From Pleomorphomonas sp. PLEO (GTDB lineage: Bacteria > Pseudomonadota > Alphaproteobacteria > Rhizobiales > Pleomorphomonadaceae): a DNA stretch of 64,000 bases. This document shows positions 12,722 to 42,055 of this stretch, one piece after another (within the stretch, counting starts at the first letter, position 1; every line of letters begins with the position of its first letter). Under the pieces are notes generated by a model. The model was given only the letters and a program-made list of their open reading frames with translations. It did no database searches and was not told the DNA's origin. Position numbers and translations under genes: made by a program. The DNA is taken from positions 4,028,001 to 4,092,000 of the forward strand of contig NZ_CP166625.1 of assembly GCF_041320595.1 (NCBI RefSeq), read 5' to 3'.

Positions 12722-12733
12722 GGAAGCAGGCCC

Positions 12734-25453: not shown

Positions 25454-27196
25454 TCAGCGCAAAACTCGCAGCTCCTCCTTGAGACTTTCAATATCCGGGA
25501 TGACGAAGGTGCGCGGCGTCGGCCGCTGGACGTCGCCCGTTCGGATAAGCTCGGCCAGTACCGTCGACACGGACTGACGCGCCGCACCGATGGCCATGGC
25601 AAGGTCATCGCCGTGAGGTGCCGCGTCGATGACGACTCCAGCCGTGGTCTGGCGGCCATCGTGCTCGGCCATCTCGCAGAGATAGCGGATCAACCGATAG
25701 CGAACGCTGCGAAAGGCCATTTCGCCGACCATGGTGAGCGACCGGTTCAGCATCTTCTCGACGGCCGGCAGAATGCACATGCCGAACTCAGGATGGTCGC
25801 GGGTCAGCCGCCGGAACAGAGCGCGCGGTATCACGGCCGCCTCGCCCTCCTTGCGGACCTCCACCACCATCTCCGGCTGGAGCGGCACCGCGTCACCCGG
25901 GCCAAGCGTGAAAAGCGTGAGCTCTTTGCCCTCATGGGAGGCGAAGCAGCGGTAGCGGCCTGACGCGACGATGAGGATGGCTTCGCCGATCTCATCCATC
26001 AGATTGGCGCCGTAGACGAGTTGGCCGATCTTCATCTTGCGCAGCTTCGGGCCGCCTTCGGTTTGCAGCGTCTCGAGCACCACGTGCGGCAGCGCATCCT
26101 TGCCAACCGGTTCACCAAGCGCCGGCCGGACCGGTTCTGGCCCGATGGTTCTACTCGGCTCCGCGCCGCCTTGGGCTTTGCGCGGCATCTGCATGCGGGC
26201 GAAGAAGGTCGATCCCTGGGCGGACTGCACCACGCACTCATCGGTGGAGGCCTGCCGCGTCACGCTGGCATGCTGCACCGAGAAAAGCTGCCGAAAATGC
26301 ACGACGCCAATTGCCGACCAGCTGAGGCCGATCAGCTCGATGGCCATGCGGTTGGCTCCAATCAGGCGATCGCTGTCGAAAGCCAACAGCCCCTCGTTGG
26401 GGCTACCGAGCAGGCGCGGGTTCGAATGCAGATGCATCTGTTCGAAGCGGCCGTAGCGGCGCTCAAATAATCGCCGCTCGATTTCATTTGCCGCGCGCTT
26501 CAAAAGCGGCAGCGAATAGTCATGCGCAACCGTCACCGAGGTCGAAAGATCGATAACGCCAGCCAGAGCGCCGCATGGATCGATGATCGGCACAGCCGAA
26601 CAGCTGATGTCCGTGTTGCCGTTGCAGAAATGCTCGGCTCCAATCACGGACAGGGCGAAACGCTCGGACACGGCCGTCCCGATGGCATTGGTGCCCCTGG
26701 CCTGTTCCGACCAGTCACCTCCGGCGCACAGGCCGAGCCGTTCCGCTTCGTCGCTGAAGTTGTTGTCGCCAAGGCGAACCAGCACCACGCCATTGGGGTC
26801 GGTCAACACCACGACACCACCCAGCGGCTGTGTTTCGCGGCAGAGCGTGACAATCTCGCCCCAAGCGGAAACCAGAAGCTCCTCGTTACGCTCCCTCAGT
26901 TCCTTGAGGCCGGTTTCCGTCAGCCGCGCCTCGTGTCGTCGCGGCGTACCGTCGATCAAGCCGTGCATGCCGCTGCGCTCCCAAGAGCGCAAAATCGGCA
27001 GCGGAATGCCCTCGGGCACAACACCATCCGACATGAACTTCGAGCGAACGGCCAGCAGCCCTCCCTGATCAGGAAGGGAAGAGGCCCGCGCACCGCGCTC
27101 ATGTCGTCCGGATGTGGTTCTGCAGGTTCCGCAGGCGGTCGGTCCGCCCGTCGGAATCGCACATTTATCGGCATCGAGCCGTTGAGGCAGGACCAT
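25454..27196 (-). CDS. Hybrid regulator: AcoR-type GAF half joined to Crp/Fnr half
   Basis: The 580-residue protein starts at ATG 27196 with GGAGGGG seven bases upstream. The N-terminus has a cysteine group (C12, then CGTC at ~23-26). Residues ~70-270 match the sensor part of AcoR-like sigma-54 activators: SWERSG, a GAF core with LTDPNGVVLVRLGD and GTNAIGTAV, and CSAVPIIDPCGALAGVIDLS. A PAS-like segment (~278-325) follows. Where AcoR would carry its AAA+ domain, there is instead a linker and a cyclic-nucleotide-binding-type barrel (~385-475), then a Crp winged helix (~510-570, AMAIGAARQSVSTVLAELIRTG). It should bind DNA itself and not activate sigma-54. It lies downstream of the aldehyde oxidoreductase operon. 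The ligand is unknown. Confidence 0.85.
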   Translation of the reverse strand: MVLPQRLDADKCAIPTGGPTACGTCRTTSGRHERGARASSLPDQGGLLAVRSKFMSDGVVPEGIPLPILRSWERSGMHGLIDGTPRRHEARLTETGLKELRERNEELLVSAWGEIVTLCRETQPLGGVVVLTDPNGVVLVRLGDNNFSDEAERLGLCAGGDWSEQARGTNAIGTAVSERFALSVIGAEHFCNGNTDISCSAVPIIDPCGALAGVIDLSTSVTVAHDYSLPLLKRAANEIERRLFERRYGRFEQMHLHSNPRLLGSPNEGLLAFDSDRLIGANRMAIELIGLSWSAIGVVHFRQLFSVQHASVTRQASTDECVVQSAQGSTFFARMQMPRKAQGGAEPSRTIGPEPVRPALGEPVGKDALPHVVLETLQTEGGPKLRKMKIGQLVYGANLMDEIGEAILIVASGRYRCFASHEGKELTLFTLGPGDAVPLQPEMVVEVRKEGEAAVIPRALFRRLTRDHPEFGMCILPAVEKMLNRSLTMVGEMAFRSVRYRLIRYLCEMAEHDGRQTTAGVVIDAAPHGDDLAMAIGAARQSVSTVLAELIRTGDVQRPTPRTFVIPDIESLKEELRVLR

Positions 27197-27432: not shown

Positions 27433-28740
27433 TTATTCCTCCCCATGGGTCACCATCACTTTCCGTTTACGACAGAGAGACAAAGTTGACCCAGACGCTA
27501 ACTCAACAGCAATGTTAACTTTTTCCGACTGCAACCAGGGGCCGACAATCTGGTGGTGAACAAGTGCGGACCGAACATCCTCGATTGTCCGTGGTTCCGC
27601 CATGACATGGATCGCAAGACACGCTTGCCGACCCGTTCTCAGTTCGACCGAGAAATCAACGACGCCATCAACCGCGAAGATTGCATCATCGATGAGATCA
27701 GCGGGAAAGCGCGCGCCCTCTCCGAAGCTGATCGGCTCGCCAATCCGCCCACCGAGGCGCACCCGGCGGAGTACCGATCCACAACGACATGGGGTTTCTG
27801 CGATGCACCCACTGTCGCCGGTGCGATAGCGGATGAGAGGCAAGCCGCGACGCCGCAAAGACGTGACGACGATCTCGCCTTGCCGACCGGCCGGCAACAC
27901 CTCGGCGGTATTGGCGTCGACAATCTCGAGATAAAGGTCGGTTTCCCGGATATGCAAACCGTCATGCGCCTCACAGGAAAGCGCGCCGCCATACCCTGTC
28001 TCCGTCATGCCCCAATGTTCGAAAACTTCGGTTCCCCAAAGGACGGCCAGCGCTGCCTTGAAGCTCGGCGAAACGCTATCGGCGCTGACCAGCGCCGTCT
28101 CGATCCGGAGCTGCCCGCCACCATCGGTCTCCATCCGACGGGCGGCGGCACCGAGCGTCACGGGCATCCCGGCGATCGCGGCCGGCTGCAGTTCGCGCAA
28201 CGCGCTCACCAGCACATCCAGCGAACTATCGACGGGCAAAGCCACGGGAAAAGCGCCAAGCCGGGTCAAGCCTCGCATCAGCAGATCGCCGACGCTGTCC
28301 GGCCGCTGGGCGGGAAAAGCCACCGCCACACAGCTGCCAGGCCGAACAATGGTTGCCATGCCATGCTCGAAATAGGCAACGGTGGCCTCGATATCGGCTT
28401 CTGTAAAGAACAGGCGCTTCTGCCTGCCCGAGGTGCCGGACGTCGGAATGGTCACCAGACGCACCGCGTCGCGCATGGGTAAGGCGATCAGGGACGGATC
28501 ATTGCGCACAAGGTCGTCGGCCGTCGTCAAAGGCAACCGGGCTATGTCGCTGAGTTTGACAAGATCGTGCCGCTCCGGCCAAGTGGTTCGCAGCCGGTAG
28601 AAGGGGCTTTGGGAGCGCGCATAGGCGATCGTCTCGTTGAGGCAACGAAGCTGATAGGCGTCGATATCGGCACGGCTCGGCAGGTGTTCAAGGCCAATCG
28701 TCCGCCCCACCCAAGCGTCGAGTGTTCCAAACCCATTCAT
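27433..28740 (-). CDS. Phenylacetate-CoA ligase-like AMP-forming ligase
   Basis: This 435-residue adenylate-forming enzyme is PaaK-like: TIPTSGTSGRQKRLFFT is the phosphate loop (~95-110), EHWGMTETGYGG the A5 motif (~240), and LPLIRYRTGDSG the A7/A8 region (~308). A small C-terminal domain follows, shorter than in typical acyl-CoA synthetases. It would activate a carboxylate as acyl-AMP and probably transfer it to CoA or another thiol. It is last of the tight accessory operon, with its ATG overlapping the radical SAM stop. I recall an orthologous gene in the Desulfovibrio vulgaris DVU_1553 neighbourhood. The substrate is unknown. Confidence 0.85.
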   Translation of the reverse strand: MNGFGTLDAWVGRTIGLEHLPSRADIDAYQLRCLNETIAYARSQSPFYRLRTTWPERHDLVKLSDIARLPLTTADDLVRNDPSLIALPMRDAVRLVTIPTSGTSGRQKRLFFTEADIEATVAYFEHGMATIVRPGSCVAVAFPAQRPDSVGDLLMRGLTRLGAFPVALPVDSSLDVLVSALRELQPAAIAGMPVTLGAAARRMETDGGGQLRIETALVSADSVSPSFKAALAVLWGTEVFEHWGMTETGYGGALSCEAHDGLHIRETDLYLEIVDANTAEVLPAGRQGEIVVTSLRRRGLPLIRYRTGDSGCIAETPCRCGSVLRRVRLGGRIGEPISFGEGARFPADLIDDAIFAVDGVVDFSVELRTGRQACLAIHVMAEPRTIEDVRSALVHHQIVGPWLQSEKVNIAVELASGSTLSLCRKRKVMVTHGEE

Positions 28741-30131
28741 GTCGACGGCTCGCGGTAGAGCGACCGCCCCTTGAGGTCGGTCAGATTATAGGCGCAGAAC
28801 GGGATAACGCGGCCGTCCGACTTCGCCACGTGGATATGGCACTGGCGAAGGCGATCGAGGTCGAGCGTCCAGGCGTCCTGGAAGGCCATTCCGGACAGTG
28901 ACAGGCGCTGGCTCCGCTGCTCTAAAAACACATCGAAAGCCTCAAGGCCGGTAACCGGCGTTGCCCCCTGGGGCGCCTTCGTCCATTGGCCCGCGACATA
29001 ACGCTGGGCGCGCGAAACAGTCGGTGAGCGCCGCGTCGAAACGTCGCAACAATCCGCTTCGCTCGTTGCACTCTCGACATCGGGACCACAACAACCGGCC
29101 CCGGATTCCGGATCGGACCGGAATCGACCTGAACGATCGACAGCGAAGCGACCGCTGAAGGAGCAGAAGGGATTTTCCGCCGAACCGGGACGAAAGTCCT
29201 CGAGCCTGATGGCGCCGCCAGCATGATCGATCAGCGCCTGCATCACCTCCGGCAGGGTTATGCGGTTCTCGTCGCTCGGAGCCCCGAGATTGCGCCCGAA
29301 ATACGATACCGGCTGGAAATGGACGGCCCGAACCGTCGGCATCTCGTTCTTGGCGAAATCGACGATGGCACCGATTTCGCTCGTATTGACACCGGGAACC
29401 AACGTCGGCACCAGCACGACGCCGATACCCGCGGCACGCGCGCTGGCGATGGCGAGGCGCTTTGCCGCCAACAGGTTGCGGCCACGCAGCCGCCGATAGA
29501 CGGCATCGCTGACACCATCGAACTGCAGGAAGACGCAATCGAGACCGGCATCGACGAGAGCCGCGAGATAATCGGGCTCGCGGCCGATCCTGAGACCGTT
29601 GGTGTTGAGCTGGACAAAATCGAACCCTTTGCCCCGCACCAAGGCGACGATCTCAGGCAGATCATCGCGAACCGTGGGTTCACCGCCCGACAGCTGGATA
29701 TGCACCTGCCCACTACTTGACCTCAGCTCGTCGAGGGCAACGCCGATTTCGTCGATCGGCATGTCGACGCCATGCCGACCAGCAGAGGCGAAGCAGACCG
29801 GGCAGATCAGATCGCAACGCGACGTCACCTCGATCAGCACGCAGCATCCTTGCTGGCGATGATCGGCGCAGAGCCCGCAATCCCTGGGACAGCCTTCGGC
29901 GATGTCCGTTTTGACGCTGACCGGCAGAGATGTGGCGCGAGGACTGCGAGACCAGATCTCGTAGCTGCGAAGCCCCCTCCATACCGGCGTAGCAACGTGA
30001 CCGTGCTCGGGACAGGTCTTGTCGAGATAAACCGTGTCTCCGACGGCGAAACGCTCGGCCGGAATGGTCTTGAGGCACTCCGGACAGACGCTAAGGGTAC
30101 GCCCAAGGGACAGGCGAACGGGGCCGGTCAT
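28737..30131 (-). CDS. Radical SAM protein of the Mo-hydroxylase accessory operon
   Basis: The 464-residue protein has an N-terminal zinc-ribbon-like pair (CPEC...CPEHG), a CPRDCGLC segment (~80), then the radical SAM motif VTSRCDLICPVCFA (~103-116), the SAM-contact IQLSGGEPTVRDD and a barrel. This layout resembles the MJ0619/Tes-type branch, which often methylates or couples unactivated carbons. A later cysteine-rich stretch (GCCGPDVESATSEADCCD, ~345-362) may bind an auxiliary cluster. It begins two bases after the nucleotidyltransferase gene stop. The reaction is unknown. Confidence 0.85.
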   Translation of the reverse strand: MTGPVRLSLGRTLSVCPECLKTIPAERFAVGDTVYLDKTCPEHGHVATPVWRGLRSYEIWSRSPRATSLPVSVKTDIAEGCPRDCGLCADHRQQGCCVLIEVTSRCDLICPVCFASAGRHGVDMPIDEIGVALDELRSSSGQVHIQLSGGEPTVRDDLPEIVALVRGKGFDFVQLNTNGLRIGREPDYLAALVDAGLDCVFLQFDGVSDAVYRRLRGRNLLAAKRLAIASARAAGIGVVLVPTLVPGVNTSEIGAIVDFAKNEMPTVRAVHFQPVSYFGRNLGAPSDENRITLPEVMQALIDHAGGAIRLEDFRPGSAENPFCSFSGRFAVDRSGRFRSDPESGAGCCGPDVESATSEADCCDVSTRRSPTVSRAQRYVAGQWTKAPQGATPVTGLEAFDVFLEQRSQRLSLSGMAFQDAWTLDLDRLRQCHIHVAKSDGRVIPFCAYNLTDLKGRSLYREPST

Positions 30132-30133
30132 CG

Positions 30134-31294
30134 TCAGCCTCCCACCGGTACTGCGGGACTACCGGCCACCGGTATGTGACCGAGCGGTCCGACCACCGCC
30201 TCGACGGCGGAAAGGACGGCTGCGACGGCGGCGCGTCGACGTTGCGCACCGGCCAATGCGGCGGGATCCCCGGCAAAGGCGGCCAAGGCCGGCGCAAAGC
30301 GTTCTTCGAGATCGACGCGTCGCTCACCCTTGATCAGCTTGTCGGCGAGAAACACCAAGTGCCGTTCGTCGATCGGCTGGCCCGGCTCAAAAGTCATTTC
30401 CATGTGGGTCGCGACAATCTGGGCGACATGGGCAAAGCCGAATGCCGCGACATACCGCCCCCCCGCGACCGCGTGATCAGGCTCGCCCTTGGCTATGTCG
30501 TGAAGCAGCGCACCGGCCCGCACGGCATCGGCATTGATCGATAGACCCTTGGCGATCAGGCGTTCGGCTATCTCCAGAGCCAGCCGAGCGACGGCGGCGC
30601 AATGGCGGCGGGTCGGCTCCGGTGCCCCTATGGCATCTTGCATCGCTTCGCACTCCGCCGCGTCAGGATAGCGACGATGCGGCAATAGCGCTGTGAGACG
30701 GCGGTAGTCGTCGGAATAGTCCATGTCGCGCAGCACGCCGCTGTCAATGACAGGGATGGACTGGGCGTGCCGTTGGTGCCGCTCAAGAATGTCGCGCAGC
30801 GTTACCTCGGCCGGCGCCGCGAGGATTTCGGCGAAGAGCTGCCGACGAATGAAAGGCGGGTGACCGGACTGTCCGCGAAAAGTCGGGCGAAGAACGAAGG
30901 CCTCCCCTTCCCCGACGCTTCTTGCGATCTGCGCCAGAGTGCCTGCCCTGACGAGCGGTATGTCGACCGGTAGGATCATCGCGCCCTCGACCGTCTCGGG
31001 CAGCGCGGCGATCCCGGCCTTGATGCTGGACATCATGCCCTCGGCGAAGGCCGCGTTGAACACCGCCACCGCGCCGTGGGCCTCGACGACCGGAACCATG
31101 CGGGCCGCCTCATTGCCGACGACGACGTAGGCCTTGCCGATGGCGGCCTCGGTGATGGTCGCGATCACGTGCCCGAGCACGGTGTCATCGCCAAAGGGCA
31201 ACAGCGGCTTGAACGCCGCCATGCGGGACGACCAGCCCGCCGCCAATATCACCACGGCAATGCTCGGCGGCGGCGCCTCGACCGGATCACTCAC
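30134..31294 (-). CDS. MobA/MocA-like nucleotidyltransferase fused to an HD domain
   Basis: This ~386-residue fusion begins at GTG 31294, which has GGAGGAG five bases upstream and overlaps the previous stop as GTGA. Residues ~10-200 form a MobA-like NTP transferase (VVILAAGWSSRMAAFKPLLPFG, PVDIPLV). Residues ~230-340 form an HD phosphohydrolase-type domain (HCAAVARLALEIAERL and LLHDIAKGEPDH). MocA and MobA add CMP or GMP to molybdopterin, so a dinucleotide form of Moco for the Mop enzyme is a sensible guess. I know this fusion as the DVU_1551-type NTP transferase. Confidence 0.87.
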   Translation of the reverse strand: MSDPVEAPPPSIAVVILAAGWSSRMAAFKPLLPFGDDTVLGHVIATITEAAIGKAYVVVGNEAARMVPVVEAHGAVAVFNAAFAEGMMSSIKAGIAALPETVEGAMILPVDIPLVRAGTLAQIARSVGEGEAFVLRPTFRGQSGHPPFIRRQLFAEILAAPAEVTLRDILERHQRHAQSIPVIDSGVLRDMDYSDDYRRLTALLPHRRYPDAAECEAMQDAIGAPEPTRRHCAAVARLALEIAERLIAKGLSINADAVRAGALLHDIAKGEPDHAVAGGRYVAAFGFAHVAQIVATHMEMTFEPGQPIDERHLVFLADKLIKGERRVDLEERFAPALAAFAGDPAALAGAQRRRAAVAAVLSAVEAVVGPLGHIPVAGSPAVPVGG

Positions 31295-31746
31295 GGCTTC
31301 TCCTCCGGTGGAATAGCCGTGATATCGACGCCGTGATCGGCGAGCGTTTCCTTGATCTTGTCCCACGTGGCGATGATCAACGCCGGGCAACGTTGCCGCT
31401 TCAGGGACTCGTCGAACTTCATGATGTCGGAACAATTGATGCCGCCGTATTGGCCAGTCGCAGCGGCGCTGAACCAGCCGGCGAAGTCGTCGAGCATGCC
31501 CCCCAGCTCAGGGTGTTCGGTTTCACCATCGCCGCCACGTCCGGCATAATAGCCGATGACGCAGCAGCCAGCGGATAGAGCGCCACAATTGAAACCCTGT
31601 CCCATCCCGAGGGAGAGGCCGGACATGGCCCGGACCAAGTCCGGATCGTCGCGCCCCTGCGCCTCCAGGGCGAGCCGCATCAGGATGTGGCTGCATTTGA
31701 AGTCGTCGAGCAGCAACTCGGCAACGCGGAAGGACTCCTCGCTCAT
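31291..31746 (-). CDS. C-GCAxxG-C-C family redox protein
   Basis: This small ~151-residue protein carries the family core FNCGALSAGCCVIG (~52-65), with further cysteines at FKCSH near the N-terminus, GINCSD (~105) and RCPAL (~120). The family probably binds a metal or Fe-S cluster or does thiol redox work, and is often beside redox operons. The start overlaps the methyltransferase stop as ATGA and its end overlaps the nucleotidyltransferase start. No enzymatic role is established. Confidence 0.85.
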   Translation of the reverse strand: MSEESFRVAELLLDDFKCSHILMRLALEAQGRDDPDLVRAMSGLSLGMGQGFNCGALSAGCCVIGYYAGRGGDGETEHPELGGMLDDFAGWFSAAATGQYGGINCSDIMKFDESLKRQRCPALIIATWDKIKETLADHGVDITAIPPEEKP

Positions 31747-32423
31747 GGGTTTGCGCTCCCTTTCGATGGCGTCGGCTCGGCGGATCGCGCAGCAACGATC
31801 AGCCGATAGCGTGGCCGACCGGCCGTTTGCCCGGCGCAGGCACAATCGCCCCACAACGCGTCGAGCGAACCGTAGTGAAAGATGAAGCGTGCGACAAAGC
31901 CAGCCAGCACGTCCGATCTGTCTTCATCGCGAAGAATGGCAAAGCCGGCCGCCAAAATGTCCTCGCCAAGCTCGTCTCGCCCATCACGGCACGGCCAGTC
32001 GACATCGGCGAGTAGCAAACGCCCGCCCGGCCTCAGCACCCGGGCCCATTCGACGAGCGCCGCACGACGATCTGGCATCAGCGACAGGCTGCATTCGGAG
32101 AGGACCGCGTCAAAGCAGGCATCGGCAAATGGCAGGCGCGCGCCATCGCCATGAAACAGCGCCGAGACGACCCGCGAGGCAGCGATCGCCAGCGTTCTTG
32201 CGTCGCGGTCCACGCCGATGCCGATGAAGCCGTGTTTTTCAAGCCAAGCTAGGCTTTCACCTGCGCCACATCCGACATCCAGCACCAACTCACCGAGACG
32301 CAGGCCAGACCGTTCGAACAGTTCCCTGACGATCGCCCCGTCGCCTGGCCGCAGCCGTTCGCCGGTGGCGTCCTCGACGCAACCGCTACCAAACAGACCG
32401 GGGAGCGGGGAGGACTTCGCCAT
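31743..32423 (-). CDS. Class I SAM-dependent methyltransferase
   Basis: The ~226-residue UbiE-like methyltransferase has the SAM motif LVLDVGCGAGESLAWL (~45-60), VDRDARTLAIA and LRPGGRLLLADVDWP. ATG 32423 overlaps the zinc-ribbon gene stop as TGATG, so the upstream open frame is not used. It resembles the DVU_1556-type methyltransferase of the same conserved neighbourhood. The substrate is unknown. A cysteine-bearing C-terminal segment (WGDCACAG, ~198) is unusual for the fold. Confidence 0.85.
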   Translation of the reverse strand: MAKSSPLPGLFGSGCVEDATGERLRPGDGAIVRELFERSGLRLGELVLDVGCGAGESLAWLEKHGFIGIGVDRDARTLAIAASRVVSALFHGDGARLPFADACFDAVLSECSLSLMPDRRAALVEWARVLRPGGRLLLADVDWPCRDGRDELGEDILAAGFAILRDEDRSDVLAGFVARFIFHYGSLDALWGDCACAGQTAGRPRYRLIVAARSAEPTPSKGSANP

Positions 32424-32629
32424 CACTTGTCTTCCAGAGCCTGTTCGACCTTGAGCATCCTGCCGTACGCAAGCTCCTCGGAGACATAGACAAAACCACA
32501 GGAGGGGCAGCACGGAAGCTCGACCGGGAATGTCTGGCCAAGATAGCTCGCCTCTACCTTCCGCATTTCCAAAGGCTTGTCGCAGCGGGCACAGACCAGA
32601 TCGGGAATATCGGCGGATGTACCGGTCAT
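32423..32629 (-). CDS. Small zinc-ribbon/redox protein
   Basis: This is a 68-residue protein with two CxxC knuckles: CARCDKPL (~14-21) and CCPSCGFVYV (~41-50). The pattern fits a zinc ribbon or rubredoxin-like metal site. It overlaps both neighbours by one to four bases, so it is certainly translated with the operon. It corresponds to the DVU_1557-type redox protein as I recall it. A role in electron transfer or protein contacts is inferred. Confidence 0.85.
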   Translation of the reverse strand: MTGTSADIPDLVCARCDKPLEMRKVEASYLGQTFPVELPCCPSCGFVYVSEELAYGRMLKVEQALEDK

Positions 32630-34959
32630 GGTTTCACCTCGACCTGCATGCGGTGACCATAGGCGCGATGAACGATGAAGCCAGCTTCGGTTGGTTCATA
32701 TTCGACCCAGGTGGTGACCGTACCGATGCGACCAGAGGCGGTAAAATGGCCGCTGACCCGGTCCTTGAACTGACTGCCAGTCCGCTGCGCCTCTGCGATC
32801 ACCTCGGCGATATCGTCGACCAGCAACAGCTTGCGCTCAATGTCGGCCCGGACGGCATCAACGATGATGAGAGTGACGGATGAAGCGGGATCGCTCATAC
32901 TTTCTCCCCAGAGGTCACGCCGCATGCGCCGGCTCAGTCGTAGTCGATTGTCGCGCCGTCCCGAAAAGCCTGGGTCGGGGCGAGCCGCGGGATCGTCGGC
33001 GTCGGGGAAGATCAGGTCAATGAGATGAAGGGCGCGTTTGCCCCGCCGGGCAAAGTTGTCGCGGCACATGGCGCAATAGGCGAGGTAGTCGTCTTCGCTC
33101 TCCTCGATCCGCCGGTCGACGAAGGCGTTTCCGACCTCGGGATTGGCGAAGGAGACCAGCCCGCCATAGCCACAACAGGTGGTCTTCTCGGCGCCCGTCA
33201 GCTCTCGAACTTCCGCTCCCAAGGACGCGGCGATCGAACGCACCGCCGCCTGAACATCATGGGCATGTCGACTAGTGCAGGGATCGTGGATGGCGAGCGG
33301 CTTGGTGACGGATCTCGGTGCCGCGACGTCTGGCAGGCCGATCGTCACAAGCTCCGTCCAGAGCGACGAAACCGGTATGTCCGGCAGGAACTCGTCGATC
33401 TGCTTGAGGCAAGTCGAGCAGGCCGTGACGATGCGCGGCCTCCCCTGCTCTTCCCAGACGGCGTGAAGGTGATCGAGCACCTCCCTGTGCAGCGCCTTGC
33501 GCCCCGACCAGTGGGCTGGAGCGCCACAGCAATCCATCATGAAGCCGACGCCACCCGGCAGATGCTCCGAGAGGTGGCGATAGACCGCCTCGACCTGCCC
33601 TGGCGCTGAGGCCGGCAACTGGCAACCGGGAAAGAACAGCACGGCGCTCCGGTCATGTCCCGGCTGATGGCGAACGAAGGCGACCTCGTCGGAACGACTG
33701 AAAGCCATGTCGCGCAGCGCGAAATCATGATGGGAGGCAGGCATGTGATCGCGTTCGACCATGCTCTGCCGTGCGTCCAGGCAGACATCGCCCATGGCGA
33801 GATCGTTCGGGCAGAGCGTCTCGCAAAGTCCGCACAGGGCGCAACTATCGATCATCCGGTTGGACTTGCGATTGCCCATGATGATCGAGTCGTTGTTGTA
33901 GATCTCGCGCACCGCCCGCTTGGGATAGGTCTTGTAGTGGGCAAGATAGGCGCACGCCTTGACGCATTCGAGGCAATGACAAGGAAAGCAGCGCGCCGCT
34001 TCGCTCATCGCCTCGGCGCGATTGTATCCAGCTACGGGGTCGGATGGTTGAACGGGCGCCACGACAGCATGGCTGGCCGTGTTGACGTAAAGACACGTGC
34101 CAGTGGCATTGTCGTCGGCGCGGCTCGCCGTCAGCGAGGCGCCCTGCAGGAAGCGATCGATGGAGACGGCGGCCCGTCGGCCATCGCGGACCGAGAGGAT
34201 GGCTGAATAGGTTTCGACATCGCCAGTGTGGAGGCAGCTGCCGAAAACACCTGGCCGCGACGTCGCCAGCGTCAGCGCATCAAGATCGAGCCGATTGGCG
34301 GAGGTAAGACCGAGCGTTCCGGCAAATTGGCTGGCCGGGCCGGGACCGATCGCCAGAAGAACGGCATCGTGACCGGCAATGAGCTCGTCGAGCGCAGGCG
34401 AACCGGCGCCACCGGTCACCCTTTGCCGACACCGGACATCGACGCCGAGCGAGGTGAGCGCGCCGAGGTCGGCGTCGATCGCCGAGGGCGGTAGCGTTGC
34501 TTCATCAATGTCGTGACGCAGTCGCTCGAGCGGACGTGCCTCGGCTTCGAAAACGGTGACGGCATGGCCTTTCATGACGAGGTCGAAAGCCGCCGTGAGG
34601 CCGGCGAGGCCGGCACCGATGATGGCGATCGTCTTGGGCTTGCGCGCCCGCTGGGCCGTGCGGCGAATTGTCGGATAGGCATCTTCGACGAGCGCTCGTT
34701 CGAGAGCGCCCAAGCGGACGGCTCCGCCTGCCTCCGTCCGGCGGCAGACAGCCTCGCACGGGTGTTCACAGATATGAGCGATGATCGCCGGAAAGGGAAC
34801 AACGCGACTATAAAGTGCCATGGCGGCGGTGAAATCGCCGGCGGCCATCTTCTCGGCCATACCGCGCGCATCGACGCGAAGTGGACAGGCAGCGGCGCAT
34901 GCCGGTGGCTGTTCCTCGATGCAGAGCGCTTCCCATGCCTTGATTTGATCGCCATCCAT
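32626..34959 (-). CDS. Multi-cluster Fe-S/FAD oxidoreductase with CCG domains
   Basis: This 777-residue electron-transfer protein has, in order: a GltD-like N-terminal cluster domain (CAAACPLRVDARG and CEHPCEAVCRR, ~20-75); a Rossmann nucleotide domain (IAIIGAGLAGLTAAFDLV, ~110); two [4Fe-4S] sets (CFPCHCLECVKAC ~325 and CALCGLCETLCPNDLAMGDVC ~372); two CCG domains like heterodisulfide-reductase HdrB/D (FFPGC...DCCG ~445-480; HDPC...TCCGYGG ~560-610); and a C-terminal ~90-residue domain. It starts the accessory operon ~110 bases after the aldehyde oxidoreductase, so it is the likely electron partner of that enzyme. Confidence 0.88.
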   Translation of the reverse strand: MDGDQIKAWEALCIEEQPPACAAACPLRVDARGMAEKMAAGDFTAAMALYSRVVPFPAIIAHICEHPCEAVCRRTEAGGAVRLGALERALVEDAYPTIRRTAQRARKPKTIAIIGAGLAGLTAAFDLVMKGHAVTVFEAEARPLERLRHDIDEATLPPSAIDADLGALTSLGVDVRCRQRVTGGAGSPALDELIAGHDAVLLAIGPGPASQFAGTLGLTSANRLDLDALTLATSRPGVFGSCLHTGDVETYSAILSVRDGRRAAVSIDRFLQGASLTASRADDNATGTCLYVNTASHAVVAPVQPSDPVAGYNRAEAMSEAARCFPCHCLECVKACAYLAHYKTYPKRAVREIYNNDSIIMGNRKSNRMIDSCALCGLCETLCPNDLAMGDVCLDARQSMVERDHMPASHHDFALRDMAFSRSDEVAFVRHQPGHDRSAVLFFPGCQLPASAPGQVEAVYRHLSEHLPGGVGFMMDCCGAPAHWSGRKALHREVLDHLHAVWEEQGRPRIVTACSTCLKQIDEFLPDIPVSSLWTELVTIGLPDVAAPRSVTKPLAIHDPCTSRHAHDVQAAVRSIAASLGAEVRELTGAEKTTCCGYGGLVSFANPEVGNAFVDRRIEESEDDYLAYCAMCRDNFARRGKRALHLIDLIFPDADDPAARPDPGFSGRRDNRLRLSRRMRRDLWGESMSDPASSVTLIIVDAVRADIERKLLLVDDIAEVIAEAQRTGSQFKDRVSGHFTASGRIGTVTTWVEYEPTEAGFIVHRAYGHRMQVEVKP

Positions 34960-34983
34960 GATGGTCTCGATACGTTGTCATTG

Positions 34984-35058
34984 ACCCGAATTGGGTACGG
35001 GCGGCCCGGGAGAGGACGGGCCGCCCGCATTTCGGGGAGTGGGCGGGAAAGCTCCCCG
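34984..35058 (-). terminator. Stacked hairpins between the Mop gene and its accessory operon
   Basis: An 11-pair stem, CGGGCGGCCCG (34998-35008) with CGGGCCGCCCG (35017-35027), has an eight-base loop. Beside it CGGGGAG (35033-35039) pairs with CTCCCCG (35052-35058), and ACCC/GGGT flank 34984-34996. No U-run follows, so this may be a processing or attenuation site that lowers expression of the accessory genes relative to the oxidoreductase. Confidence 0.55.
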
Positions 35059-35069
35059 TTTATGTCACC

Positions 35070-37829
35070 TCAGTGGTGCTGGAGATCCTTTTTGGCCGCG
35101 GCCGCTCCTGCCTGCGCCTCAAGCCCCATCTTAATCGCCTCTGGCAGAGCGGGAATACGGAATATCCGCACGCCGCAGGCGTTGTAGATGGCATTGAGGA
35201 TCGCCGGATGAAGAGCAGTCAGCGGCGCTTCGCCGACACCTGCCGCACCAAAGGGACCAAGCGGGCGGGCGGTTTCGAGATAGAGGATCTCGATATCGTC
35301 CGGCACATCCTTCGGATAGGGAATGCCGCAATCCTTGAGCGTGGTGTGCAGCTCCAGATCCTCGAAGTCCTCGGTCAGGGCAAGACCAAGACCCTGAGCA
35401 AGACCGCCATAAACCTGACCATCGACAGTGGCCTTGTTGATGATGGTTCCGACGTCGATGGCCGTCGTCAGCTTGACCACGGACGCCTTGCCGGTCTCCA
35501 CGTCGACTTCGACTTCCGGCATGAACACTTCGTACATGTAGATCGGGAAGGGATTTCCCTGGCCGGTGTCCGGCGAACAGTCGGTGCAGGCCGCCGCCAC
35601 CCACTTGCCGTCGTAGGCGAGCGGAATGTTCTCGGCCACCATCTCCTTGTAGGTCCGGTAGCTGCCATCGGCCTTCGTCATGGCCTTGAGCATCATCTCG
35701 GCCGAGACGCGGATGGCATTGCCGCAGAAGACGTTGGAGCGGCTACCACCGGCAGGCCCGCCGTTCGGCCCGAAGGTATCGGCCATGACAAGTCCGATTT
35801 GCTCGGGCTTGACGCCGGCCACACGCAACACCTCATGCGCCATGGTCTGGGCGGAAAGATCGGCACCCTGGCCGTGGTCTTCCCAACCGGAATGGACGAT
35901 GAAGCCGGACGGCGTCATCTCGACACGAGCTTCCGAGCTGTCGGGACCGTCGAGACCGCAGCCGTAGATGCCGAGGGAAATGCCGACGCCGCGCTTGGTC
36001 TCGGGCGTCGACAATTTGGCAGCCCGCTGCTTGGCTTCCAGGTATTTCGGCCGGATCATGTCGAACAGCTGCTTGAGAACCAGCACCTCGGGCTTCTGGC
36101 CGGTCGGTGTTGTCGACGTCTCGTTGTAGAGATTCTTGTAGCGGAACTCGAGCGGATCCTCGCCCATCTTCTCGGCCAGCATGTCCATGGCGATTTCGCC
36201 GGCCAAGAAGGCCTGCGGCGAGCCATAGCCACGGAAAGCCGAGCCCCAGGCGTGGTTGGTCGCAACCGTCTTGCCCTTGCCGCGGATGTTTTCAAGATGG
36301 TAGCCGGCGCCGGTGAACTGGGCCTGACGCAGGGTCACCAGATCGCCGAATTCCGAATAGGGGCCGTGATCGAGCCACCAGTCGGTTTCCATGGCGGTGA
36401 GCTTGCCGTTCTTGTCGCAGGCCAGGCGGATGTTGATGTTGGCCGGGCTGCGCTTACCGGTATAGGTGATGTTCTGGAACTGGTCGTAGACCAGCGACAC
36501 CGGCTTCTTGGTGACGAGAGCGGCGACGCCGAGCAGGGCTTCCATGGTCGGCGAGAACTTGTAGCCGAAGGTGCCGCCGGTGGGGTTCTGGATCAGCCGC
36601 AGCTTCTCGGGAGGAATGCCGAGGCCGGGGCAGATCATGGCGTGATGCAGATGCACGCCGATCGACTTGGACAGGATCGTCAGCACGCCGTCATCGTCGA
36701 CGAAGGCTTCGCCACAGTCAGGCTCCAGATGCAGATGCGGCTGGCGCGAGCAGTAGGTGGTGATGTCGACGACCGCGGCGGCGCTGGCCATCAGCGGCTT
36801 GGTGTCGGCACCCTTGACGACGCCCTGCTCGTAATAGGCATTGGGAACGCCGGGGTGGATTTCCATGGCGTCGGGCGCGAGAGCCGCGAAACCGGACATA
36901 TAGGCCGGCAGCACTTCGAGGTCGACCTTGACCTTCTTGGCGGCGGCGCGGGCGTGTTCTTCAGTGTCGGCGGCAACGATGGCAATGGCATCGCCGAACT
37001 GGAAGATCTTCTCCTTGCACAGGATCGGACGATCCCAACCGTCACCCTTGTTGGTCGGGAAGGTGATGAGGCCGGTGATGGCGTTCTTGCCACCCACGTC
37101 CTTCCAGGTGATGATCCGCTCGACGCCGACCATCTTCTCGGCTTCCGCCGTATCGATGCCCTTGATGAGGGCATGGCTGACCTCGGCCTGGACAAGCGCG
37201 AGGCGCAACGTGCCGGCCGGCATCTTGAGCGCAACGTCGGCTCCGAAGTCCCACGTACCCGTGACCTTGGCGACGGCCGACGGACGGATGTACTCGGTGC
37301 CGAGAATGGAGCCGTCTTCCTTGGCCTTCGGCATGACGTCGTAAATGGTCTTCTCACCGCGCATGATGGCAGCGGCGTCCATCACCGAGTCGATCAGCGG
37401 CTTGTAGCCGGTGCAGCGGCAGAGATTGCGGTTGCGGTGGAACCAGGCGCGGACTTCCTCGCGGGTCGGGTTGAGGTTCTTGTCCAGCAACGCCTTGGCC
37501 GACATGATGAAGCCGGGTGAGCAGATGCCGCACTGGGCGCTGCCGTGGGCCATCCAGGCGACCTGCAGCGGATGAAGATTCTCCGGGGTTCCGATGCCTT
37601 CGATGGTGACGATCTTCGAGCCGGCAGCAAGCTTCTCCATCGGCGTCACGCAGGCACGGATGGGCTTGCTGTCGATCAGCACCGTGCAGGAACCGCACTG
37701 GCCGTCAGCGCAGCAAACCTTACAGCCGGTAAGCATCATCTGCTCGCGCAGCACGTCGGCGAGCGAACGCTTTGGGTCGGCAACGACCCAGCGTTCGACG
37801 CCGTTCACATTTAGAGAAATGCGTTTCAT
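35070..37829 (-). CDS. Molybdopterin-dependent aldehyde oxidoreductase (Mop type)
   Basis: This 919-residue single-chain xanthine-oxidase-family enzyme oxidises aldehydes to acids. The plant-type [2Fe-2S] domain has VCCADGQCGSC (~40-48). The second [2Fe-2S] domain has QCGICSPGF (~99) and NLCRCTGYKP (~136). Two large Moco domains follow, with GGTFGYKFSPT, AFRGYGSPQAF, GGPAGGSRSNV and the catalytic glutamate in GVGEAPLTALHPA near 870. No FAD domain is present. Whole-length similarity to the Desulfovibrio gigas Mop enzyme is clear from memory of that sequence. Expected acceptors are flavodoxin-like or the downstream oxidoreductase. XdhC lies just upstream. Confidence 0.95.
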   Translation of the reverse strand: MKRISLNVNGVERWVVADPKRSLADVLREQMMLTGCKVCCADGQCGSCTVLIDSKPIRACVTPMEKLAAGSKIVTIEGIGTPENLHPLQVAWMAHGSAQCGICSPGFIMSAKALLDKNLNPTREEVRAWFHRNRNLCRCTGYKPLIDSVMDAAAIMRGEKTIYDVMPKAKEDGSILGTEYIRPSAVAKVTGTWDFGADVALKMPAGTLRLALVQAEVSHALIKGIDTAEAEKMVGVERIITWKDVGGKNAITGLITFPTNKGDGWDRPILCKEKIFQFGDAIAIVAADTEEHARAAAKKVKVDLEVLPAYMSGFAALAPDAMEIHPGVPNAYYEQGVVKGADTKPLMASAAAVVDITTYCSRQPHLHLEPDCGEAFVDDDGVLTILSKSIGVHLHHAMICPGLGIPPEKLRLIQNPTGGTFGYKFSPTMEALLGVAALVTKKPVSLVYDQFQNITYTGKRSPANINIRLACDKNGKLTAMETDWWLDHGPYSEFGDLVTLRQAQFTGAGYHLENIRGKGKTVATNHAWGSAFRGYGSPQAFLAGEIAMDMLAEKMGEDPLEFRYKNLYNETSTTPTGQKPEVLVLKQLFDMIRPKYLEAKQRAAKLSTPETKRGVGISLGIYGCGLDGPDSSEARVEMTPSGFIVHSGWEDHGQGADLSAQTMAHEVLRVAGVKPEQIGLVMADTFGPNGGPAGGSRSNVFCGNAIRVSAEMMLKAMTKADGSYRTYKEMVAENIPLAYDGKWVAAACTDCSPDTGQGNPFPIYMYEVFMPEVEVDVETGKASVVKLTTAIDVGTIINKATVDGQVYGGLAQGLGLALTEDFEDLELHTTLKDCGIPYPKDVPDDIEILYLETARPLGPFGAAGVGEAPLTALHPAILNAIYNACGVRIFRIPALPEAIKMGLEAQAGAAAAKKDLQHH

Positions 37830-37870
37830 GTCTTCCTCCTAGGCCGTCTTGTCTGTTCCGACGTCCGCAC

Positions 37871-38719
37871 TCAGCTGGCGGCAGCGAAAGGCGCCGCCTC
37901 CTCTACAGCCCCACACCAGTCCATGGTCCGCGTCAGCGGGCATGCCTTGTCGACACCTCGGATGTGGGCGATCATTTCGGCGGTCACGCAGACCGCGATT
38001 TCCTCGGGCCCTTCGGCCCCGATCTCGAGACCGACGGGAGCGTGGACGCGTCCAAACGCTTCCGGGGCAAAGCCGGCGGCAACGAGATTCTTGTAGACAG
38101 TGAGCACCTTGCGCTTCGAACCGATCATGCCGATGTAACCAGCCGGCGTGCCAAGCGCCCAGGCAAGCGCCTCCTGATCGAGGGCATGGCCGCGCATGGC
38201 GATGAACACCAGCGACGAGGCGTTGGGCGACAGATGCGTGGTGGTCTCGGCGAGTGGTCCGCCATGGGTGCTGTTGGCGGCAGGAAAGCGCTCGGCATTT
38301 GCGAACTCGACACGATCGTCGACAACCACCGTTTCGAAACCCAGCGTCCGGCAGATCGTTTCCGTCATCAGGCCGACATGACCGCCGCCGAAAATATAGA
38401 CGGTCCGGTTGGGCATGATTGCCTCGATGTAAAACTGCAGTTTACCGCCGCAGATCATGCCGAGATCGAGCGTCGGATTCTTGTGAAGATCGATGGCCAG
38501 CATCTGCGACAGGCCTGATGCGATGACCTCGCGGGCGATCATGATCGCCCTGCCCTCGGCGGCTCCGCCACCGACCGTACCGGCGATCGTGCCGTCGGCT
38601 CGTACCAGCATCTTGGCGGCCGTCGCCGACGGCGTAGACCCCGATTGGGTAACAATGGAAACCAGCGCGGCGCGGCGACCGGCATCGCGCTCCCGGATGA
38701 GTTCCTTGTAGATATCCAT
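37871..38719 (-). CDS. xdhC: XdhC/CoxF-family Mo-hydroxylase maturation factor
   Basis: The ~282-residue protein binds Moco, protects its sulfurated form and delivers it to xanthine-oxidase-family enzymes. The N-terminal XdhC_CoxI domain has GSTPSATAAKMLV and GTVGGGAAEGRA. The C-terminal Rossmann domain has YIFGGGHVG (~130), GYIGMIGSKRK and HAPVGLEIGAEGPEEIAV. ATG 38719 is chosen for GGAGGACAGC upstream. It precedes the aldehyde oxidoreductase by 41 bases, so one transcript is likely. Confidence 0.93.
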   Translation of the reverse strand: MDIYKELIRERDAGRRAALVSIVTQSGSTPSATAAKMLVRADGTIAGTVGGGAAEGRAIMIAREVIASGLSQMLAIDLHKNPTLDLGMICGGKLQFYIEAIMPNRTVYIFGGGHVGLMTETICRTLGFETVVVDDRVEFANAERFPAANSTHGGPLAETTTHLSPNASSLVFIAMRGHALDQEALAWALGTPAGYIGMIGSKRKVLTVYKNLVAAGFAPEAFGRVHAPVGLEIGAEGPEEIAVCVTAEMIAHIRGVDKACPLTRTMDWCGAVEEAAPFAAAS

Positions 38720-39180: not shown

Positions 39181-39453
39181 TCAGCCCCCGGTCATGGGCG
39201 GAAAGAGAGCAATTTCCCGCGCGTCTCCGAGTGCTTCGTGCTGCTCGATATGCAACTGGTCGACGGCGACACGGATGGTCGATGGCGACTCCAGCGCATA
39301 GGCATAGTTGTCGCCACATCCGGACAGCCAGGCGATCAACTCACCGGCTGTCCGGACGTTGTCAGGCAGATTCAGATGCTCGTCGGAGAGACCGATGCGC
39401 TCGCGCACCCAGGCGAAATAGACGACGCGGACCTCTCGGCGCTGCGTTTCCAT
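39181..39453 (-). CDS. MoaD/ThiS-like sulfur-carrier protein
   Basis: This ~90-residue beta-grasp protein ends in FPPMTGG, the di-glycine tail that is adenylated and thiocarboxylated. It starts at ATG 39453 after GGAGGAACCG. It may act as MoaD for molybdopterin synthesis, fed by the MoeB/ThiF-like enzyme at 20969, or as a dedicated carrier for the Mo enzyme downstream. No MoaE partner is in the window. It follows the flavodiiron gene by 28 bases. Confidence 0.85.
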   Translation of the reverse strand: METQRREVRVVYFAWVRERIGLSDEHLNLPDNVRTAGELIAWLSGCGDNYAYALESPSTIRVAVDQLHIEQHEALGDAREIALFPPMTGG

Positions 39454-39481
39454 CGGTTCCTCCGACTTCCGGCAATGCCGA

Positions 39482-40669
39482 TCAGGCCGCGGCCTGCTTG
39501 GCGGCATGCGCGGCGGCGATATCGTCGGCGAGGCGGTCGAGCTCGGCGAACGCCGCTTCGCGCGGCAAGCCCTTGACCATCACCGGTTCGAAGAAGGTGG
39601 CACTCAGCTTCGGCAGCATCGATTGGATGATCTCCGGCAGATTGCCCTCCCAGCCGAAGGAGCCGATCACCGCCGCATACTTGGCTTTGAGGCCGAGCAC
39701 GTTGGCGAGGAGGGCCGCGTAGGCGACGCTGGGGTGCGGTCCCGACAACACCGTCGGCGAGGCGAACACCACGGTCGACGCTTCGACAAGGCTCATGGCG
39801 AACTCGCCGGTATCGAGATCGACGACGTTGATCGGCTTGGCGCCGATTCCACGCTCGATGAGTCGGTCAGTGAGGTAGCCGACCATCAGCGCCGTACTCT
39901 CGTACATCGACACGTAGGGGATGACCACGAAGGGCTTGGGCTCGTCGGATGTCCAGGACCTATATAGGTCGAGAATGAAGGGCGGACGGGCGTAGATCGG
40001 GCCATGGCTGGGGGCGATGAAGTCGAGCTCCAGCGCCCGGACCTTGTCGCCAGCTTCCTTCGAGAAGCTCCGGTAGGGCATCATGATCTCGGCATAGTAG
40101 CGCTTGGCCGCCGTCTCGACCCGCGCTTCGTCATCGGCAAAAAGATCGGTGGTGGCGAGGTGGGCGCCCAGGAAGTCGCAGGTGAAGGCGATGCGCGATT
40201 CCGGGATGTAGGTGACCATGGTATCGGGCCAGTGGACCCAAGGGGTCATCAGGAATTGCAGCGTCTTGTCGCCGAGCGACAGGGTGTGGCCATCACCGAC
40301 GGTGATGAAGGCATCGCGACTGACCGGCAGAGTATCGAGGATGAAGCGCTTGCACTTGGCGTTGGTCACCACCTTGGCGTCGGGGAAGAGCTCGAGGACG
40401 GCGGGAATGGAGCCGGAGTGATCCTGCTCGGCATGATTGGCGACGATATAGTCGATCCGCTCGATGCCGGACTTCTTGAGCGCGGCGATGAATTCCGCTG
40501 TTTTCGGCGGATAAATGGTGTCGATCAACGCCGTCTTTTCGCTGCCTTTGACCAGATAGGCGTTGTAGGTCGTGCCTTCCGGCAGGGGAACCAACTCATC
40601 GAAGAGCTCACGATCCCAGTCGATCGCCCGATATGAGAAAATGCCGTCCGTAACCTTTTGCGGGATCAT
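39482..40669 (-). CDS. Flavodiiron protein (FprA/ROO-type)
   Basis: This is a 395-residue A-type flavoprotein. The N-terminal metallo-beta-lactamase-like domain holds the diiron ligands (NHAEQDHSGS ~80-89; later SHGP), and the C-terminal flavodoxin domain binds FMN (VFASPTVLSGPHPS and GSFGWEGNLPEII). These enzymes reduce oxygen to water or nitric oxide to nitrous oxide and protect oxygen-sensitive metabolism. No extra rubredoxin or flavin reductase domain is fused. It sits between the ArsM-like and MoaD-like genes in one direction with short gaps. Confidence 0.93.
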   Translation of the reverse strand: MIPQKVTDGIFSYRAIDWDRELFDELVPLPEGTTYNAYLVKGSEKTALIDTIYPPKTAEFIAALKKSGIERIDYIVANHAEQDHSGSIPAVLELFPDAKVVTNAKCKRFILDTLPVSRDAFITVGDGHTLSLGDKTLQFLMTPWVHWPDTMVTYIPESRIAFTCDFLGAHLATTDLFADDEARVETAAKRYYAEIMMPYRSFSKEAGDKVRALELDFIAPSHGPIYARPPFILDLYRSWTSDEPKPFVVIPYVSMYESTALMVGYLTDRLIERGIGAKPINVVDLDTGEFAMSLVEASTVVFASPTVLSGPHPSVAYAALLANVLGLKAKYAAVIGSFGWEGNLPEIIQSMLPKLSATFFEPVMVKGLPREAAFAELDRLADDIAAAHAAKQAAA

Positions 40670-40709
40670 CGCGAATACCTTTCACTTGATGACGATAAAC
40701 AGGGTGGGC

Positions 40710-41759: not shown

Positions 41760-41934
41760 CACGACCTCCACTTCCTGCTCCTTCCCATCCAGCCGGATGT
41801 CGGGAAACGTCGGTCGAGATCATCGCGCCGAATTGGTGACTGGGTCTGTCATGTAGAAGACAAAGGGCGAAAATGACCGCCCGGCATCACAACATGGCCT
41901 CGTGCGTTGAGCTGTTGATCCGTCCGCCAAGGCT

Positions 41935-41980: not shown

Positions 41981-42055
41981 TGGTGGTCGCTGTAGGGATT
42001 GAACCTACGACCCCCGCAGTGTGAATGCGATGCTCTCCCGCTGAGCTAAGCGACC
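41981..42055 (-). tRNA. tRNA-Val (anticodon CAC)
   Basis: A complete cloverleaf reads leftward: acceptor GGTCGCT with AGCGACC, D arm GCTC/GAGC, anticodon stem TCGCA/TGCGG region with loop TTCACAC (anticodon CAC), T arm GTAGG TTCAATC CCTAC, discriminator A and an encoded CCA at 41981-41983. Confidence 0.95.

Follow-up and report, generated by a model that had tools for sequence, protein, structure and literature searches.

The aldehyde oxidoreductase (AOR) of Pleomorphomonas sp. PLEO, a molybdopterin-dependent enzyme of the Mop type, is encoded in a 64,000-nucleotide stretch of contig NZ_CP166625.1 (positions 4,028,001 to 4,092,000; “the window”), where its gene belongs to a row of nine consecutive genes on the minus strand. 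The genes run from position 38719 to 27433 in the order XdhC, Mop, Diclust (a protein with flavin adenine dinucleotide (FAD), Fe-S and CCG elements), zinc-ribbon protein, methyltransferase, C-GCAxxG-C-C protein, a fusion of nucleoside triphosphate (NTP) transferase and HD domain (NTP-HD), TrsS (a radical S-adenosylmethionine (SAM) protein) and AMP-forming ligase. The locus would serve as a dedicated support unit for Mop-type AORs, and its helper genes are almost certainly linked to Mop in function. Genome comparison points to Diclust and the zinc-ribbon protein as AOR partners, accompanied by a nearly obligatory radical SAM module. What is new here is the fixed C-terminal lysine of the zinc-ribbon protein and the nature of Diclust, a flavin protein apparently without an NAD(P) domain. 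The fixed end is a possible site of the helper chemistry, and modification of the lysine, if true, would amount to a novel type of carrier or protein-bound cofactor.

A functional link between these genes and Mop had been proposed in an initial reading of the bare sequence (the original prediction), and it is strongly supported by the co-occurrence of TrsS and the zinc-ribbon protein with Mop in genomes. The samples comprised 60 relatives, 199 Desulfovibrionales (an even sample), 196 Clostridia and 349 Pseudomonadota, including the sample centres (G402, G403, and G000), which had been picked for carrying the unit. Mop was counted at an E-value of 1e-150; G458 (722 bits, 38% to Desulfovibrio gigas) and G439 (split across two contigs) were counted as Mop though they fall below the cut-off. 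Among the Desulfovibrionales, Mop is present in 129 genomes and TrsS in 127: 124 carry both, five Mop alone, three TrsS alone and 67 neither (Fisher p ~7e-43, kinship not corrected for). In two of the three TrsS-only genomes (G487 and G565), the contig breaks off within the operon or next to it. The zinc-ribbon protein behaves alike, with 124 genomes carrying it together with Mop, five with Mop only, one with the zinc-ribbon protein only and 69 with neither. The TrsS counts exclude seven Desulfovibrionales matches of ~290-350 bits (G422, G442, G452, G453, G462, G463, and G467), all in genomes from which Mop is absent, and two Clostridia matches (G622 and G750), while G487 (467.8 bits) and G612 (421.6 bits) were kept despite scores below the cut-off; the zinc-protein counts exclude two weak matches (G555 and G607). 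In the Clostridia, nine genomes hold Mop (one as a fragment), TrsS is above cut-off in eight, all among those nine, the genome with the fragment being the one without it, and the zinc-ribbon protein is above cut-off in exactly the nine. The 60 relatives show TrsS above cut-off in 14/14 genomes of the genus and 0/46 others. Mop is present in the same 14 genomes (above cut-off in 12, truncated at contig ends in the remaining two), and the 46 others hold no Mop above cut-off, three of them having weaker Mop-like matches. When 20 Mop loci were selected, 16 were without a TrsS match of at least 250 bits in the locus, many of them cut by contig ends; the genomes holding these loci (19/19) have TrsS above cut-off somewhere. 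Homologues that occur mostly without Mop would speak against a functional link, and this outcome, checked with TrsS and the zinc-ribbon protein, did not occur.

The genes also remain side by side. The neighbourhood was surveyed in the best 80 matches to Mop, 56 of which have at least 9 kb of downstream sequence (“long loci”). Diclust and the zinc-ribbon protein each occur in 55 of these 56 (the latter counted with a clean hidden Markov model (HMM), free of long overlapping frames), the ligase and the C-GCAxxG-C-C protein in 53, TrsS in 51 and the methyltransferase in 49, and all six core genes are found together in 47. Clustering of the set with Mop is thus far from chance. XdhC (37/56) and the NTP transferase (41/56) are less constant companions.

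Open reading frames were confirmed for all nine genes (9/9) at the coordinates of the original prediction, the genome around the window being a single contig of 5.48 Mb. The crowding noticed there between 34959 and 27433 holds up: 4-bp overlaps join ligase and TrsS, NTP-HD and C-GCAxxG-C-C protein, C-GCAxxG-C-C protein and methyltransferase, methyltransferase and zinc-ribbon protein, and zinc-ribbon protein and Diclust, and a 2-bp gap lies between TrsS and NTP-HD, with figures that depend on the start codons chosen for methyltransferase, C-GCAxxG-C-C protein and NTP-HD. The spacing is 110 bp between Diclust and Mop and 41 bp between Mop and XdhC. A resemblance to the DVU_1551-1559 set of Desulfovibrio vulgaris, which the original prediction had pointed out, was borne out as well: the locus contains the same nine families (NF045645, NF045646, and NF045663-NF045669), eight of them above NCBIfam cut-offs, and five of these eight are named after DVU_1551 to DVU_1557. 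NCBIfam curators had thus already modelled families of this set, and DVU_1559 is listed as Aor in a table of one source (PMC10920352); TrsS appears as a table row in one paper, and no paper describing the unit was found in the open-licence literature. XdhC (37871..38719; 282 aa from ATG; Pfam XdhC_CoxI and XdhC_C) scores 268.7 bits against the 350 of XdhC_rel_AOR, and because it misses this cut-off, the claim is limited to an eight-gene core with an XdhC relative. In contrast to the D. vulgaris set, XdhC stands directly before Mop in Pleomorphomonas, and a GAF-Crp regulator follows the operon.

The unit is found in several bacterial phyla, and its transfer as a block is quite probable. TrsS is above cut-off in a single one of the 349 sampled Pseudomonadota, which is the window's own genome, and the copies from alphaproteobacteria group in a single clade that has full support in the Shimodaira-Hasegawa-like approximate likelihood ratio test (SH-aLRT) in the trees of Mop, TrsS, and Diclust. 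Both observations support the transferable unit suggested in the original prediction. In these quick trees with midpoint root, the alphaproteobacterial clade sits near Bacillota-rich groups, and 28-29 of 50 splits are common to the trees pairwise. Judging from the trees, the pattern would fit one block entry into alphaproteobacteria with later exchange among them. Among PLSDB plasmids, neither TrsS (E limit 1e-60) nor the zinc-ribbon protein (E limit 1e-3) was matched.

Mop itself (35070..37829; 919 aa; NF045668 with 1548 bits, cut-off 1100) consists of two [2Fe-2S] domains and molybdenum cofactor (Moco) domains and has no FAD domain according to Pfam. It is 60% identical to the D. gigas AOR (1sij) and 59% to 1dgj, and E867 aligns with the catalytic D. 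gigas E869, the residue named Glu 869 in passages of PMC10223205. The likeness to the D. gigas enzyme (1sij/1vlb) extends from the domains to the adjoining operon: genome G513 encodes a protein that, over 901 residues, is 100% identical to the AOR crystallised from D. gigas, and its gene is adjoined by Diclust, zinc-ribbon protein, methyltransferase, C-GCAxxG-C-C protein, TrsS, ligase and XdhC.

What might the helper genes provide to this enzyme? The original prediction considered a special form of Moco; in that case, the entire operon would produce or repair such a cofactor. Such a role is suggested by the presence of a MocA-like NTP transferase and of XdhC in the set, by the genome-by-genome tracking of Mop by TrsS and by a MoeA-like domain gene near Mop in 12 of the best 80 loci. 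In the window, a ThiS/MoaD-family gene (39181-39507) lies upstream of XdhC-Mop, and the radical SAM gene at 24350-25348, downstream of the operon, is presumably MoaA-like, so that the unit may have Moco-type genes on either side. However, the AOR purified from D. gigas cells contains molybdopterin cytosine dinucleotide (MCD), with an oxo group in place of the sulfido ligand, unlike xanthine oxidase, as stated in passages of PMC10223205. Ordinary MCD in the crystallised enzyme of an organism that carries the operon makes a permanently modified Moco in Mop unlikely. Moreover, the cofactor genes proper are the less constant ones: of the 56 long loci, 37 have XdhC and 41 the NTP transferase, compared to 51-55 for TrsS, ligase, Diclust and zinc-ribbon protein. 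We consider dedication of the whole operon to Moco improbable; a transient Moco form is possible. The families suggest one contribution within the support unit, in which NTP-HD (DVU_1551 family; 30134..31294; 386 aa from the chosen GTG; NF045665 with 408 bits; MocA model TIGR03310 with 134 bits, under its cut-off of 186) and XdhC would make and insert ordinary MCD.

A second contribution of the support unit might be electron uptake by Diclust (32626..34959; 777 aa; NF045663 with 968 bits), the match to which begins at most 1 kb from the end of Mop in 54 of the 55 long loci with Diclust. The D. gigas AOR has been an object of study for almost 40 years, its missing flavin domain was sought, and flavodoxin, which took electrons onward from the enzyme in vitro, is named as its putative cellular partner, according to parts of PMC10223205. 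Diclust, which has two [4Fe-4S] regions, contains a Fer4_20 region, a dicluster region, two CCG modules and, at the C-terminus, a domain that Pfam does not match, and the 24 cysteines tested are all present in 38/38 aligned rows. Its structure model (predicted local distance difference test (pLDDT) 90.8) holds one flavin-type Rossmann unit, by reading of its elements, and has NfnABC, StnABC, NfnL, and GltD as Foldseek neighbours. With these flavoproteins (5jca, StnABC, and NfnABC) Diclust has the Fer4_20 and flavin-type domains in common, but it adds the dicluster, CCG and C-terminal parts, and the NAD(P) domain is apparently missing, because the segment 98-316 (177-218 residues in 38 rows, compared to ~330-345 in NfnI alpha of 474 aa) is more than 100 residues too short. 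With a flavin domain present and an NAD(P) domain apparently absent, Diclust becomes a candidate for the missing flavin partner, and we slightly favour it as the electron outlet of Mop. Electrons would pass from Mop to Diclust via its flavin domain and onward via Fe-S/thiol chemistry rather than NAD(P), an exit proposed since no NAD(P) domain is apparent. Five alphaproteobacterial loci (L032, L033, L034, L037, and L046) encode, upstream of Mop, a large subunit resembling that of group-4 [NiFe]-hydrogenases, with CxxC pairs close to either end, and in two loci of Desulfosporosinus a relative likewise lies upstream of Mop. This arrangement recalls the aldehyde-to-hydrogen chain that was rebuilt with D. 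gigas proteins (described in part of PMC10223205); the three genes scanned upstream in the window (39181-41771) include no hydrogenase subunit.

The gene after Diclust encodes the DVU_1557/DUF7479 zinc-ribbon protein (32423..32629; 68 aa; NF045645 with 100 bits), the C-terminus of which, VEQALEDK, is fixed. The terminal lysine lies exactly 24 residues past the last CxxC in 82/82 distinct sequences, which end in LEDK (80), LENK (1) or LEGK (1), and the same lysine end is found in 45/45 loci of a second draw, 41 of them absent from the first set. V61, E62, L65, E66, and K68 are invariant and D67 is near-invariant. In the other eight proteins of the operon the tail varies, no single length accounting for more than 24% of rows. 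The protein resembles the carrier LysW/ArgW, which is likewise small and has CxxC pairs and an invariant C-terminal residue. LysW ends in EDWGE, the terminal glutamate of which holds the substrate, according to passages of PMC10433800. DVU_1557, in contrast, ends in lysine instead of glutamate, and its companion is an adenylate-forming ligase, whereas that of LysW is LysX; because of its LEDK end with terminal lysine and the lack of EDWGE, it was not filed as LysW. By analogy, a carrier with a terminal amine would suit the adenylate-forming ligase of the operon, and we infer that the operon would modify the C-terminal lysine. Binding can also fix a protein tail, and the zinc-ribbon protein might act as an unmodified adaptor, the LEDK end of which is lodged in a binding pocket provided by Mop, Diclust or TrsS, with the other enzymes making a diffusible cofactor or carrying out redox maintenance. 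Consistent with such docking, the zinc-protein gene comes next after Diclust in most loci and after a stand-alone Diclust C-terminal domain in a sister cluster described below. However, docking leaves unexplained why an adenylate-forming ligase, with a conserved C-terminal lysine of its own, and a Tes-like radical SAM enzyme accompany the zinc-ribbon protein, and we regard it as rather doubtful. The structure model of the zinc-ribbon protein (pLDDT 74) has the MqsA zinc domain as best Foldseek match (E 0.039), no listed match reaching E 0.001 or below; a toxin-antitoxin origin of the Diclust C-terminal domain and the zinc-ribbon protein, considered on account of this weak match, found no Pfam support in the scanned pieces and was rejected.

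As a third and more tentative contribution of the support unit, the ligase, TrsS, the methyltransferase and the C-GCAxxG-C-C protein might act on the C-terminal lysine of the zinc-ribbon protein. The ligase (DVU_1553 family, PaaK-like; 27433..28740; 435 aa; NF045666 with 378 bits) has the pair K425-R426 in its C-terminal part, each residue kept in 90% of rows; it would activate an acid as adenylate and couple it to the lysine amine. TrsS (28737..30131; 464 aa; NF045646 with 579 bits, cut-off 490) would then work on the attached chain, and the modified protein could act in trans, as a carrier or redox arm for both Mop and Diclust. TrsS aligns with tetraether synthase (Tes; 7tol) at E 1e-79 and keeps three Tes sites in at least 95% of rows (C16, C19, C40, H43; C81, C85, C88, H91; C106, C110, C113), as well as M415, C431, and C446 of the C-terminal cluster, M415 being aligned with Met439, the equivalent of which is kept in 54/54 rows. 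Tes forms a bond between a saturated substrate carbon and a cluster sulfur, and its Tyr459 is completely conserved in archaea, as passages of PMC9433317 state. TrsS shares with Tes/GDGT-MAS the rubredoxin-like N-terminal C2..C/H site, the second cluster site and the radical SAM motif, but it is shorter (464 compared to 526 residues), does not keep Tyr459 and is encoded beside Mop in bacteria; it was not filed as Tes because it scores 343.6 bits against the Tes family (cut-off 450). The methyltransferase (DVU_1556 family, SAM-dependent; 31743..32426; start GTG 32426 or ATG 32423; NF045667 with 173 bits) has a conserved Cys112, and the C-GCAxxG-C-C protein (DVU_1555 family; 31291..31746; 151 aa from the chosen ATG, MSEESF; NF045669 with 154 bits in a scan of the longer reading) keeps C42, C78-G79, C129, and C144 in at least 95% of rows (numbering of the longer reading).

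In a more specific version of this proposal, DVU_1557 would represent a new carrier class, in which the PaaK-like ligase acylates the lysine and TrsS makes a redox arm that resembles lipoate and contains sulfur; on this arm, electrons would shuttle between Mop and the CCG/flavin reductase. In lipoate, an acid is joined to a lysine amine, and LipA performs radical SAM chemistry on the chain. The operon has this idea in common with the lipoate/LipA system, and a dihydrolipoyl dehydrogenase, which could serve the arm, occurs in one sister cluster without Mop; in contrast, neither a lipoyl domain nor LipA is named in the operon by NCBIfam and Pfam scans, and the attached group is hypothetical. The lipoate-like arm is rated as unlikely, slightly more so because Tyr459 is not kept in TrsS. 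The zinc-ribbon protein could also be a precursor, similar to the peptide precursors PqqA and MftA, and TrsS would derive a small redox cofactor for Mop from the invariant residues at its C-terminus. A conserved residue set near a radical SAM gene is in line with this idea, but TrsS is Tes-like and scores far weaker to peptide-maturing radical SAM families of NCBIfam, and no peptidase is named among the 11 neighbour clusters for which representatives were scanned (of 15 recurring clusters; two of the 11 gave no match at all). Such a peptide-derived cofactor is very improbable.

Sister clusters in which the helpers stand apart from Mop suggest, together with gene copy numbers, what kind of product to expect. 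L142 (G729:C158, Clostridia) contains no Mop, which is found on other contigs of G729. It holds TrsS, the ligase and dihydrolipoyl dehydrogenase above NCBIfam cut-offs, a second TrsS-like protein, relatives of the methyltransferase, the C-GCAxxG-C-C protein and the Diclust C-terminal domain (stand-alone) below them, and a zinc-ribbon protein ending in LEGK, which passes Pfam DUF7479 and misses the NCBIfam cut-off. L138, in a genome without Mop match (G607), has a TrsS-like pair and a ligase-like gene; its neighbours include a DUF5714 protein (7641-8234) and an HGD-D protein of the 2-hydroxyacyl-CoA dehydratase/double-cubane type (12351-13316). L142 and L138 suggest that a module made of TrsS, ligase, methyltransferase, C-GCAxxG-C-C protein and zinc-ribbon protein can be separated from Mop, and they hint at dithiol chemistry. 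Three genomes (G536, G618, and G708) have three Mops above cut-off and one TrsS each, and G571 and G534 have two above cut-off plus a weaker one with a single TrsS; G708 has three zinc-ribbon proteins, the other four genomes one. Action in trans is proposed because several Mops share a single TrsS in G536, G618, and G708, and a product serving several Mops, rather than a route for a single aldehyde, fits best. This bears on the complete aldehyde-to-acyl-CoA route that the original prediction had offered, in which Mop would yield an acid, the PaaK-like ligase would convert it to the coenzyme A (CoA) thioester and the remaining genes would supply or process a particular aldehyde. The ligase is indeed PaaK-like with an AMP-binding domain, and the D. 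vulgaris Aor has been assigned to an ethanol pathway (in part of PMC10920352). However, one TrsS per three Mops, the presence of the ligase in a Mop-less cluster and the lack of a substrate-specific catabolic gene among the 11 scanned neighbour-cluster representatives (of 15) argue against it, and it would leave TrsS, methyltransferase, C-GCAxxG-C-C protein and zinc-ribbon protein unexplained. The route was not borne out, and we see little chance for it.

The full explanation, including covalent modification of the lysine, is tentative and on the whole somewhat doubtful, and a number of observations weigh against it. G423, the clearest exception to the co-occurrence, has a full Mop and neither TrsS nor the zinc-ribbon protein. 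Copy numbers are mixed: Mop and TrsS are each present twice in G775 and G797, and several multi-Mop Desulfovibrionales have one zinc-ribbon protein. The invariant C-terminus may merely dock into a partner, and homology of the zinc-ribbon protein to LysW was rejected, since no LysW appears among the fold matches listed. In TrsS, the position of Tyr459 is occupied by V, E, T or I in 53/54 rows, and two cysteines beside the C-terminal cluster residues are not kept throughout. At least two ligase homologues (L100 and L105) are without the C-terminal domain. Dihydrolipoyl dehydrogenase in a sister cluster is one case only, in a genome with Mop elsewhere, and L138 has no zinc-ribbon protein by the clean HMM, the only match of G607 being weak and on another contig. 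As for Diclust, the strict GxGxxG motif is missing from 6/38 rows and occurs more than once in 15/38, and because this noisy number varies among rows, motif counts cannot settle the NAD(P) question; given the transfer to flavodoxin in vitro, Diclust need not be indispensable to Mop.

Some further features of TrsS and of the surroundings deserve mention. Selenocysteine in TrsS was considered and rejected, as TGA codons coincide with the usual C-terminal stop or lie close to it, or else (L095) precede the matched stretch, with no clear internal selenocysteine; the copy of G775:C203 (L143) has one in-frame TGA and is a possible selenocysteine form. Downstream of the operon lies the GAF and Crp-type helix-turn-helix regulator (25454..27196, minus strand; Pfam GAF and HTH_Crp_2), GAF relatives of which follow the operon in eight alphaproteobacterial loci, while sigma-54 DhaR-like regulators recur in 11 Mop loci, mostly non-alphaproteobacterial. 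Upstream, the ThiS/MoaD-family gene overlaps a flavodiiron/flavorubredoxin-like gene (39482-40669), counterparts of which also precede Mop in five more loci of Pleomorphomonas (L026, L027, L029, L031, and L098); the relative at L027:7296-8480 matches flavorubredoxin below cut-off. A second UbiE/ArsM-like methyltransferase (40710-41771; Pfam Methyltransf_31) follows near a tRNA-Val gene (41981-42055). A CobC-like histidine phosphatase is encoded near Mop in 18 of the best 80 loci, for example at L084:21389-22048 (152.6 bits, short of the 162.9 required for alpha-ribazole phosphatase). Finally, the third-position guanine-plus-cytosine content is 0.82 in Mop compared to 0.68-0.73 in Diclust, NTP-HD, TrsS, and the ligase, which may reflect stronger expression of Mop.

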